A stretch of DNA of 10,587 bases from Gemmatimonadota bacterium. Lineage in GTDB: Bacteria; GCA-2686955. This document shows positions 412 through 4,328 of the stretch, in pieces. The position numbers were made by a program, and so were the translations under genes. The DNA is taken from NCBI GenBank assembly GCA_002686955.1, contig NYZA01000112.1, forward strand, positions 1 to 10,587, read 5' to 3'. The notes beneath the pieces were generated by a model. That model made no database searches and was not told where the DNA came from. It worked only from the letters and a program-made list of their open reading frames with translations. Numbering within the stretch: the first letter of the stretch is position 1; every line of letters starts with the position of its first letter.

Positions 412-3400
412 TTACGGATTCGCGTCTCCGGGCGTCGCGTACGGCAGCACTACCCAACTCGGGCTTCCGTCGGGCGAGCGTCCCTCGCTTACGTCGCTCA
501 CTTGGGGACCGAAGGGAACGATATCGACCGCCGTGTTTTCACGTAGATCCAGATCGAAGATGCCGACCTCCTCTCCCGACTTGCTCAGCTTGAAAGGCGC
601 GTGCGTCCACCCCTGCTCCGTATCGTCGTCGCACCACACGATTCGATAGGCTCCGGGCGGCAACTCCTCGTCCGGCAGTCGCCACTTACGCGGCTCGGCG
701 GCGTCGTCGGAGAGGAACAGACCGTCCAGATGCACCGTGTGGGTCCCGGCGTTGTAGATCTCGACCCAGTCGTCGAAATCGTCTCCCTCGTCGGCGATCG
801 TCGTGTCGTTCGACGCCATGATCTCGTTCACCACCAGATCCGGCGCGCGCGGATCGCGCAAAGCCACGACCGCTTCCACTTCGTGGATCGGCCGCCCCAG
901 CTCGTCCTCGACCGACGCGATCAGCGTCACCACGATCGGGTCGATACCGGTGGGAAGCATGCGGGATATCGGCACCACGACCGTGGCGTCGCCCGCGAGC
1001 ACGATCGTCCCGCGCCCGAGCTCGATCTCACCCGGGTCACCACGAATCGTCAATGCCATGTCGATCGTGCGAGGGAATGAACGACGGTTCTCGACCGACA
1101 CCCGGAACGTGACCTGATCCCCCAGGAAATACTCCGGATCCACATCGATTCTCACTTCGACCACCGGTGTACTGTCGTTGCGGGCTCCTGGTGTGCTCTT
1201 CGCCGCCAAGTGGACCCGGTGCGCGGCATCTTCGACCCTCGCGGCCGCAAGATCGGGCAGCGATATCGTGTCGAGCCCGAAGCGGTCGACAGCCGCGCCG
1301 TCGGTCTGCGACAGAATCAACTCCTCGGTCTCGGTCCCCACGCGAAAACCGGAATGCAGGGGGCCTTCCGCGGGCTCACCGTCGAGCCAGACGAGCAGAT
1401 GCGATTCGGCTTCGAGTGTCTCCCCCAGGGGTAGTGCCCACTTCATACGATCGGCTGGGTCGTCGGAAAGCCACATCCCGCCCAGATCGATGCTCTCGTT
1501 GCCGAAATTGTAGATCTCCAACCATGGCTCGGGCTCGCCGGCTTCGTCCACAATCCCACTCAGATTCCAGAGCAGTGCTTCGTTGATGAAGAGATTGACG
1601 CTCGGGTCGGGCGCGAATGTCTCGAGTTGCTCGTAGAGCCTCGCGCCCCGTCTCTCCACGAAAGTCTCCAGCACCTCCTTCTCGTCGTCGAAGGGCCCCA
1701 TATCCTCCCAACCGAGTTTAGTCTTGTCGCGCTCGACGTCGGGTCGGATCAGAGCGTGGTCGCTGCGGATCATGCCGACCAGCGTCGGACCGTCCACTGG
1801 TCCCTCGATCAGTTCCTGAAGACGAACCGCGAGCATCCGCCGGTACTGGGGCACCGTCGTCATGCGATCGTAAAGACGGTTCCAGAAGAAGAGGAGGACC
1901 GGATGGTCGCTCGTGGCGATATCGATCGGCTGCCCGACATTCTCCATCTCCCACGACCCGTCGAGGTCCCAGGGAAGGAACTCGAAGAGCCCGGTCGATG
2001 CGTCTCGGAAGAGATAGAGATTCCAGCCGGCGATATCCCAACCCGAGAAGACCGCGTTGCCGCCGTAGTAGTCGATGAACTTCGCCACGTCGAGGTGCTT
2101 CTTGATCTCGGTCCGGAACTCCTCATCGCTCGTGAGCGCGACGACATCGACGAGATCGGATAGATACTCGAAGTCGCCGTAGCTGCCGACCTCGAGCTTG
2201 TAGTCCCCGTAGTAGGAATCGATGTTGTTTCGCCTGATGAAGGTCGCATCGATCCCCTTCCAAACCGAACCGTCGAGCGACCGGTTCTCGAGAAAGTGCT
2301 CGTCGACCTGTTCGGCGCTCTGATAGACACCGATAAACTCCCCGTTTCGCTCCAGATGTACGTACTCGGCGATGCTGGAAGTGACCCCCGAGCGCGCCAT
2401 CACCTGATACGAAAGCGCCTCGCGCATCATCGAGGGATCGAACCAGTGGGCCTGCAGATTCAGCACGTCGTGCCCCGAAGGCAAGGGCGAATCCACTCGG
2501 ATCTTGTGGTTCTTTTTCACGTTCGACCTCGATGTGTTGCCCCGATAGCGAACCCGCGCATCGGGCCACGAATCATCGAGTGTCCAGAAAAGACCGGGAA
2601 GGTAGTCGTCGGACTGGCGATGTGTGTTCAGCCAGATCAGATCTTCCTGCGCCATCTCGAATCCGTACACCACTAAATCGGACTGATCCGAGCTCAGTGG
2701 AATGCCCGAGGCCACCGCCGACGGCACACTCGTGTTGCCGGCCGCGTCGACCGCCACCAGGCGATAGGCATAGTCGCGATCCGGCTCCAGCCCTGTATCG
2801 ACATAACGTGTCGCCACCACGGGGTCGGGCGTGATGACCTCCTCCGGTCCCCCATCGATGCTGCGCAGAACAGCTACACCGAGTTGATCTCGATCGTAGT
2901 CGGTCGCCCAGGTGAGCACGTTCTCAGAATAGCCGGGAACCACGGCGACATCCTCGGGAACCGCCGGCGGGATCCCATCGTCGACGACGCTCTCTACATG
3001 GACCGCCGCGAGAAGTGGCTCCTCTTCGATCGCCCGGGCGATGATACTGAGCGAACCGTCGTCGACATCGACCACACGCCGCAGATTGAGCGCGTAGAGG
3101 CGATCGACCTCGGTGAAGATGTCGAAGCCGTCGAAAAGCACTTCCCCCTCGACCTCGATATCGAAGACCCGAACCCCACTCCAATGCTGTGACCATTCCA
3201 TGAAGTGAAACGAAACCAGATAGCTGCCCGGCGGGAGATCGAACCGGTACTCCTGCCAGCCGACCCGCCTCGAGGAGACGATGTTGCGGGCCTGAACCCC
3301 CGGAACGATCCCTCCGAGAGGGTTCAGTCGGGCAAGCAGATCGGGCTGAACCGCCTCGCCCCCGACATAGCCCGATCCGTTGCTCTGAGTGTAGGCTCGG

Positions 3401-3528
3401 TCCTTCGTGTAGACCGCCCCATCGCCCATCGTGCGGGTATTCGTTCCTCCGCAGTTGAAGCCCTGCTGGTAGGCGAAGGCGTTGCTTCCACCGGCAAATG
3501 CGGCGGCGATGGCCAATCGACGTAACAT
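412..3528 (-). CDS. Secreted CotH-kinase protein with malectin, FN3 and lamin-tail domains
   Basis: Exported 1038-residue protein. A signal peptide covers residues 1-19 (MLRR, hydrophobic core, cleavage after AFA). A malectin-like carbohydrate-binding domain runs over about 22-182 (FNCGG, then YTQSNGSGYVGG), then fibronectin type III over about 188-277. A CotH atypical-kinase domain covers about 284-640: RYRGNTSR at 327-334, Lys338/339/342, WDIAGWN at 497-503 and FLPWDLDGSW at 516-525. Asp498 and Asp521 are 23 residues apart, as I recall for the catalytic and metal-binding Asp of Bacillus CotH, which phosphorylates spore-coat proteins. Lamin-tail domains lie at about 645-785 and 897-1038, with a beta-rich linker between. 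No sorting tag or C-terminal membrane anchor is seen. The start is set by GGAG 6 nt before ATG 3528 and by the signal peptide; 36 extra upstream codons look non-coding. Likely role: cell-surface or matrix protein phosphorylation or binding (inference). Confidence 0.88.
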   Translation of the reverse strand: MLRRLAIAAAFAGGSNAFAYQQGFNCGGTNTRTMGDGAVYTKDRAYTQSNGSGYVGGEAVQPDLLARLNPLGGIVPGVQARNIVSSRRVGWQEYRFDLPPGSYLVSFHFMEWSQHWSGVRVFDIEVEGEVLFDGFDIFTEVDRLYALNLRRVVDVDDGSLSIIARAIEEEPLLAAVHVESVVDDGIPPAVPEDVAVVPGYSENVLTWATDYDRDQLGVAVLRSIDGGPEEVITPDPVVATRYVDTGLEPDRDYAYRLVAVDAAGNTSVPSAVASGIPLSSDQSDLVVYGFEMAQEDLIWLNTHRQSDDYLPGLFWTLDDSWPDARVRYRGNTSRSNVKKNHKIRVDSPLPSGHDVLNLQAHWFDPSMMREALSYQVMARSGVTSSIAEYVHLERNGEFIGVYQSAEQVDEHFLENRSLDGSVWKGIDATFIRRNNIDSYYGDYKLEVGSYGDFEYLSDLVDVVALTSDEEFRTEIKKHLDVAKFIDYYGGNAVFSGWDIAGWNLYLFRDASTGLFEFLPWDLDGSWEMENVGQPIDIATSDHPVLLFFWNRLYDRMTTVPQYRRMLAVRLQELIEGPVDGPTLVGMIRSDHALIRPDVERDKTKLGWEDMGPFDDEKEVLETFVERRGARLYEQLETFAPDPSVNLFINEALLWNLSGIVDEAGEPEPWLEIYNFGNESIDLGGMWLSDDPADRMKWALPLGETLEAESHLLVWLDGEPAEGPLHSGFRVGTETEELILSQTDGAAVDRFGLDTISLPDLAAARVEDAAHRVHLAAKSTPGARNDSTPVVEVRIDVDPEYFLGDQVTFRVSVENRRSFPRTIDMALTIRGDPGEIELGRGTIVLAGDATVVVPISRMLPTGIDPIVVTLIASVEDELGRPIHEVEAVVALRDPRAPDLVVNEIMASNDTTIADEGDDFDDWVEIYNAGTHTVHLDGLFLSDDAAEPRKWRLPDEELPPGAYRIVWCDDDTEQGWTHAPFKLSKSGEEVGIFDLDLRENTAVDIVPFGPQVSDVSEGRSPDGSPSWVVLPYATPGDANP

Positions 3529-3534
3529 GGTGGT

Positions 3535-3538
3535 CTCC
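3535..3538 (-). promoter_or_regulatory. Ribosome binding site of the CotH gene
   Basis: On the minus strand GGAG lies 6 nt before the ATG at 3528. The in-frame ATG at 3636 would add 36 residues before the signal peptide and falls inside the palindrome, so this site decides the start. Confidence 0.65.
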
Positions 3539-3559
3539 GGGGTGCTGGACGGCGGTCCG

Positions 3560-3587
3560 GTCATAATCCCCGCGCCTTCAATGCCAA
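3560..3587 (-). promoter_or_regulatory. Candidate sigma-70-like promoter for the CotH gene
   Basis: On the minus strand TTGGCA (3587-3582) is followed after 16 nt by TATGAC (3565-3560). These match the -35 box at five of six and the -10 box at four of six bases. Transcription would begin near 3553, giving a leader of about 25 nt with the GGAG site in it. The match is modest and unverified. Confidence 0.25.
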
Positions 3588-3674
3588 GGGTTCGCGCAAG
3601 AATAACTTGTAATTTGGCATCCCATCTACGGCACATCTGGACGCCAAGATGACGAGCTATTCTTGCGCGAACCC
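3588..3674. repeat. 87-bp nested inverted repeat between divergent genes
   Basis: The outer arms GGGTTCGCGCAAGAATA (3588-3604) and TATTCTTGCGCGAACCC (3658-3674) are perfect 17-bp complements. Inside them 3613-3622 pairs with 3639-3648 at nine of ten positions, including one G-T wobble, around a 16-nt loop. The whole element could form one long interrupted hairpin on either strand. A competing pairing exists: ATGCCAA (3581-3587) is the perfect complement of TTGGCAT (3614-3620), and it cannot form together with the inner and outer stems. No flanking target-site duplication is visible. It could be a small non-autonomous element, a REP-like palindrome, an operator or a structured leader. Confidence 0.85.
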
Positions 3675-3683
3675 CATAACCGA

Positions 3684-4328
3684 ATGGTCATGCAAGATCC
3701 TCACTCCCCCAAGCGCTGTCTCGGCTCCATCGCCACCCCCGCGGTTGCGGCTCTCCTCCTCGCCCTCACCCTCGTCACGCTCTGGAATCTCCGCGGCATC
3801 CGCGGGCGAGAAGCTCCTCTACCCGAGCTGGGTCCGATCCACCAGTTCGAGCTGACCGATCAGCTCGGTCGCGAATCCACTGCCGCGGAGCTGCGAGGCA
3901 AGGTCTGGATCGCCAACTTCATCTTTACGCGCTGCCCTACGATCTGTCCCGCTCTGACGCGCCAAATGTGGGAGATCCAAGAGAAGAACCGCGACCTGGG
4001 GGACCGACTCCGGCTGGTCTCCTTCAGCGTCGATCCGGACTTCGATACTCCCGAAGTGCTGAGGGAGTACGCCCGCCGCCACCGGGCCGACGAAGCCATC
4101 TGGAGCTTTCTGACCGGCCCGCTCGAGGAGATTCGCCGCACCGTCGTGGAGGGGTTCAAGATGGCGATGGGCGGGAAGTCCGAGGATTCCCTGAGCATCT
4201 TCCACGGCAGCCACTTCATCCTCGTAGACACCGAGGGACGAATCCGGGCCTACTACGATTCGAGCGAGGAGGCGGTCGTCGACCAGGTCCGGCGCGGGGC
4301 ACGATCGCTGCTCGCGGAGGAGCGATAG
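3684..4328 (+). CDS. Sco1/SenC/PrrC-family copper chaperone
   Basis: Membrane-anchored thioredoxin-fold protein of 214 residues. Sco proteins deliver copper to the CuA site of cytochrome c oxidase or act as periplasmic thiol-disulphide factors. One N-terminal membrane segment spans about residues 14-36. The copper-binding TRCPTICP motif places Cys84 and Cys88, and the third conserved ligand His177 is in GSHFILVD. FSVDPDFDTPEVL (about 114-126) is also typical of Sco. Length is normal for the family. The start is uncertain: ATG 3684, ATG 3690 and TTG 3663 are all in frame and none has a clear Shine-Dalgarno; TTG 3663 lies inside the palindrome, so I prefer the ATGs. The 3' end overlaps the oppositely oriented cytochrome c gene by 76 bp, and the two probably share a respiratory role. 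Possible alternative: a SenC-like redox sensor rather than an oxidase assembly factor. Confidence 0.92.
   Translation: MVMQDPHSPKRCLGSIATPAVAALLLALTLVTLWNLRGIRGREAPLPELGPIHQFELTDQLGRESTAAELRGKVWIANFIFTRCPTICPALTRQMWEIQEKNRDLGDRLRLVSFSVDPDFDTPEVLREYARRHRADEAIWSFLTGPLEEIRRTVVEGFKMAMGGKSEDSLSIFHGSHFILVDTEGRIRAYYDSSEEAVVDQVRRGARSLLAEER
4253..4328. other. 76-bp convergent coding overlap, Sco1 and cytochrome c genes
   Basis: The plus-strand Sco1 stop TAG is at 4326-4328 and the minus-strand cytochrome stop at 4253-4255, so both C-terminal ends use the same DNA. The gene ends would produce complementary mRNA tails. There is no room for a separate terminator between the genes. Confidence 0.85.

Follow-up and report, generated by a model that had tools for sequence, protein, structure and literature searches.

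The window is the whole stretch of 10,587 nucleotides that was analyzed. An 87-bp palindrome lies in it between a sco1-like gene and a divergently transcribed gene for a CotH/lamin-tail/malectin protein (Table 1). The original prediction had described a perfect 17-bp inverted repeat with an inner stem, far beyond chance expectation, with one arm within 10 bp of the sco1 ATG. Each of these points was confirmed. The outer arms and the inner stem together form paired 26-nt arms that are 88% complementary, and 9 nt separate the right arm from the ATG at 3684. Folding of the 87 nt as DNA gave z-scores of -8.2 and -8.1 for the two strands, and folding of 126 nt as RNA, flanks included, gave -6.8; no shuffled sequence was equally stable in either analysis. 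The longest perfect inverted repeat elsewhere in the window (1,032 other 87-bp stretches) is 10 bp. A competing fold had also been proposed. ATGCCAA, immediately left of the palindrome, is indeed able to pair with TTGGCAT (3613-3619), but the segment is host flank outside the repeated unit and is found beside 0 of the 46 other complete copies described below.

A search of positions 3400-3800 revealed no promoter-like or terminator-like site and no sigma-70-like promoter, and an Rfam covariance-model search of the window at the gathering score returned 0 matches. The signal-peptide-like sequence MLRRLAIAAAFAGG makes a CotH start at 3528 or 3564, outside the element, more likely than one at 3636, inside it. 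The longer CotH frame from 3636, which starts within the repeated unit, is probably spurious.

Table 1. Coordinates of features in the window and of one insertion sequence (IS) copy elsewhere in the genome
Feature	Position	Strand	Basis or remark
Probable short-form MITE copy, whole element, 87 bp	3588-3674	+	Recurs end to end in the genome at 81-89% identity; same ends in 46 other complete copies
Left terminal inverted repeat, GGGTTCGCGCAAGAATA	3588-3604	+	
Right terminal inverted repeat, perfect complement of the left one	3658-3674	-	
Inner stem and loop; inner arms differ among MITE sub-families	3605-3657	+	
Putative deletion junction: sole remaining 15-bp direct repeat (ATCTGCGGCACATCT type)	3624-3638	+	179-bp form has two, 92 bp apart
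Left target-site flank CAA, apparently decayed 3-bp duplication	3585-3587	.	
Right target-site flank CAT, one mismatch to CAA	3675-3677	.	
ATGCCAA "third segment", host flank and not element	3581-3587	+	Beside none of 46 other complete copies
sco1-like gene (SCO1/SenC), likely ATG 9 nt past the element	3684-4328	+	Predicted start
Gene for the CotH/lamin-tail/malectin protein; ATG 3528 (or 3564), outside the MITE, is the likely start	412-3528	-	Start predicted from a signal-peptide-like N-terminus
Transposase_29 IS, C108 copy	L102:2984-5460 (G000 C108)		

Copies, target site and internal history of the repeat family

The source genome (4.28 Mb in 270 contigs, 84.5% complete) gave 84 BLAST matches to the palindrome stretch. 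When up to two mismatches were allowed, the 16-bp arm pattern GGGTNCGCGCAAGAAT had 177 matches versus 5 for a reversed control pattern. At two arms per complete element the number of elements is estimated at ~80-90, and solo arms and truncated copies exist. The copies adjoin unrelated genes, and contigs often terminate at one of them, as repeats do in fragmented assemblies. Because these ~80-90 copies are dispersed near unrelated genes, the palindrome is a repeat element and not a purpose-built regulator. Many dispersed copies had been named in advance as the observation that would turn the regulator reading into a repeat element, and this is what the genome contains.

Analyses of complete copies used the 47 from which both ends were extracted, the window copy included. 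Their sizes are 176-180 bp (28 copies), 151 bp (1), 98 bp (2), 86-90 bp (14, the class into which the window copy falls), and 40 bp (2). The family is described here as a MITE, short and non-coding, of 86-180 bp (plus the two copies of 40 bp) with GGGTYCGCGCAAGAATA ends in inverted orientation. A crude codon-based gene caller placed 37 of the 47 copies outside called genes versus 109 of 363 control CTNAG sites, a bias toward intergenic positions.

The two flanks of a copy match over exactly 3 bp in 25 of the 47 cases versus 9.1 expected from pairing left flanks with the right flanks of other copies, and matches are few at the other lengths tested. The empty site reconstructed from the copies has the palindromic consensus CTNAG, of which TNA is duplicated, and the commonest duplications are TAA, TTA, TGA, and TCA. 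A transposase acting in trans probably binds and cuts at the terminal repeats. If the element inserts at CTNAG and TNA is cut with a 3-bp stagger, a TNA triplet would remain on both sides; the duplication is established statistically over the 47 copies, and the stagger would follow from it. The window copy has no exact duplication, and its CAA and CAT flanks match at two of three bases. These flanks appear to be a decayed target duplication, which would date from the landing of the MITE upstream of the sco1 ATG. The dispersed copies and the 3-bp target duplication bear out the MITE-like insertion that the original prediction listed among its options. The palindrome is very probably (roughly 95%) a copy of a non-autonomous fold-back transposon of the MITE type, and the best explanation of the hairpin is that it is a by-product of the two terminal repeats.

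The 179-bp form carries an imperfect 15-bp direct repeat, ATCTGCACCACATCT and ATCTGCGGCACATCT, 92 bp apart, and removal of one repeat with the intervening DNA leaves exactly 87 bp. The 87-bp form would have arisen by deletion between these repeats, provided that the change ran from long to short. Some short copies retain the left version of the repeat (AC) and others the right version (GG), as the window copy does, and the two kinds of junction suggest more than one deletion event. Inner stems vary by sub-family, with AACTTGTCAT, AACTAGCGAT, and AGAATGCTAT as examples. Arms are more alike within an element than between elements (mean edit distance 4.3 versus 5.8; 0 of 10,000 permutations as low). 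Whole-element descent of sub-families, hairpin correction, or selection on the transposase site could each account for such paired changes, which are uninformative on a role at the window locus.

Several copies have unusual forms or positions. Two are hybrids with arms from different sub-families (L030:2003-2181 and L085:1967-2146), which suggests recombination between copies. The two 40-bp copies (L064:1987-2026 and L079:1985-2024) are barely more than back-to-back terminal repeats, and both are flanked by a perfect TAA duplication. At L032:2048-2082, L040:2031-2066, and L086:5503-5537, a spacer of only 3 bp separates the arms of two elements (...GGACCC TNA GGGTCC...), which suggests insertion beside an existing copy. 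At L012, L020, L060, L085, and L101 a copy sits precisely on the upstream gene's stop codon, as placed by the crude gene caller; duplication of TAA or TGA on insertion would preserve that stop codon.

No autonomous element that shares the terminal repeats turned up in the 84.5%-complete assembly, which is weak evidence since the assembly breaks at repeats. Several candidate parents were rejected. The two DDE_Tnp_1 matches in the assembly and an ISAzo13-type fragment are without the MITE ends, and DDE_Tnp_4 and DDE_Tnp_1_2 gave no match in the incomplete assembly. The MITE was not found in one genome of the same family, 58 other genomes, or the plasmids or phages searched; a single 17-mer match in viral contigs is unrelated sequence with no second arm. 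No sco1 match was detectable in one same-family relative, which therefore offers no empty allele of the sco1/CotH site. The MITE family is apparently undescribed and comes from a sparsely sampled phylum (two genomes in the comparison set).

A Transposase_29 insertion sequence within the MITE arm

Tracing solo MITE arms uncovered an IS that codes, in different frames, for a 173-aa HTH protein and a 607-aa PF21804 Transposase_29 protein. The PF21804 match is 1.1e-138 for the C99 fragment and 1.8e-190 for the C108 copy. In two copies (L102 and L103) and in the decayed L104, the junction of the two frames lies near a run of A's, which suggests programmed frameshifting or transcriptional slippage. 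Many phyla contain relatives of the IS (up to 59% identity), which have the common ends CAGACCTCCTGAYCTC; an exact 5-bp duplication is present in 5 of the 29 relatives with both ends recognizable. In the literature collection searched, no paper on the Transposase_29 family was found.

Eight IS ends are recognizable in the genome at seven loci; seven of them match the end motif exactly, and the eighth has two mismatches to it. All eight (L102:2984-5460 and L193-L200) abut position 21 of a MITE arm, where the target is AACTT/AAGTT. AACTT borders the C108 copy at each end, and beyond it lies a MITE terminus in one direction and MITE interior in the other. Three loci (C108, C3, and C62) have the 5-prime end of the IS toward the MITE interior, and two (C99 and C102) have it toward the MITE terminus. 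The presence of both orientations at one MITE site means that at least two insertions occurred there, unless the IS inverted after insertion. AACTT/AAGTT is common (~820 per Mb in the stretches of this genome that were examined), and confinement of the IS to the MITE is therefore unlikely to be a coincidence.

From the sequence arrangement, the chances are evenly balanced that the MITE family serves as a dedicated landing site of the Transposase_29 IS. The alternative to homing on the MITE arm is a MITE-IS composite that was spread by the transposase of the MITE, and the choice is between these two. No IS copy has both outer MITE flanks intact. As a general Transposase_29 trait, hairpin targeting finds no support, since the flanks of 25-29 relatives are not unusually structured (mean z -0.3 to 0). 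If homing is true, a DDE-type IS of an almost unstudied family limits damage to its host by homing on another mobile element.

Alternative readings of the palindrome

Two alternatives keep the mobile origin and change the type of element. The Transposase_29 IS at first seemed to carry the MITE ends, and MITE sequence does lie beside the ends of every recognized IS copy, so the MITE could be a deletion derivative of this IS from the same genome. Against this, the MITE lacks the IS's own ends (CAGACCTCCTGATC), which are conserved in relatives of many phyla with differing outer flanks, and itself ends in GGGTYCGCGC; the duplication at C108 is 5 bp versus 3 bp for the MITE. The C108 IS is also placed between a MITE terminus and MITE interior, as expected for insertion into a MITE. 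The arm is the insertion site of the IS, and descent of the MITE from it is very improbable. Still less probable is a REP/REPIN-type repeat moved by a RAYT (Y1 HUH) transposase. The copies are palindromic, mostly intergenic, and numerous, as that reading has it, but the family has a 3-bp duplication at a palindromic CTNAG target and its unit is one long terminal-inverted-repeat element with no REP pair. REPINs, with their HUH Y1 transposition, are not expected to produce target duplications.

The other two alternatives assign the palindrome a function at the locus. The least probable of all readings is that the palindrome evolved in place as a dyad operator or RNA switch dedicated to the control of CotH and sco1. 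Its position between divergent genes and its strong dyad symmetry would suit such an element, but the 87-bp unit recurs with target duplications at dozens of unrelated loci, which refutes this origin. Both the operator and the switch of the original prediction are left unsupported: the competing fold uses host flank, and the searches gave no Rfam family in the window and no sigma-70-like promoter. A milder proposal is that this MITE copy was co-opted and that its hairpin, lying in the leader of sco1 or in the space separating the divergent genes, now modulates sco1 or CotH, for example by slowing translation or shielding the mRNA. The proximity to the sco1 ATG, the very stable RNA hairpin, and the outer arms, still perfectly matched in the window copy, speak for it. 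However, well-matched arms are common across the family and local selection is not needed to explain them, the region has no promoter-like or terminator-like signal, and the alternative fold relies on flanking sequence that accompanies no other copy. Co-option is unlikely, though it has more in its favor than the other alternatives, and any effect of the hairpin on sco1 or CotH expression would be incidental. The reading as a MITE copy removes a false lead: the CotH-sco1 palindrome is mobile-element debris, and annotation as an operator or riboswitch is unwarranted.

Comparison with known mobile elements

The IS1031 group of the IS5 family has a 3-bp TNA target duplication and ends that start with G's. 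The MITE shares the TNA duplication and GGG ends, a likeness that does not by itself establish membership, and it differs in that no IS5-type transposase with matching ends was found in the incomplete assembly. Like described bacterial MITEs (PMC10969869), the family is short, has no coding capacity, and has terminal inverted repeats, a target duplication, tens of copies, and size classes from internal deletion. Unlike them, it has no parent found in the assembly and no match outside the genome in the collections searched. It resembles REPINs and REP sequences (PMC3116915, PMC8266576) in being dispersed, palindromic, and mostly extragenic, and is set apart from them by the 3-bp duplication, the CTNAG target, and the single long terminal-inverted-repeat unit.

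The window feature is an ordinary MITE copy; of more interest is a by-product of the analysis, the IS found only inside the MITE. REP palindromes are the insertion sites of ISPsy8, ISPa11, ISPpu9, ISPpu10, ISRm22, and ISRm19 (Tobes and Pareja 2006, PMC1525189). The Transposase_29 IS parallels them in its confinement to a dispersed palindromic repeat, although its relatives in other genomes have no hairpin preference. It differs from the REP-inserting ISs in its transposase family, PF21804, and in its host repeat, a MITE with its own target duplication. An IS at one fixed MITE site makes it possible to test whether a mobile element exploits a different one as a harmless place to insert.
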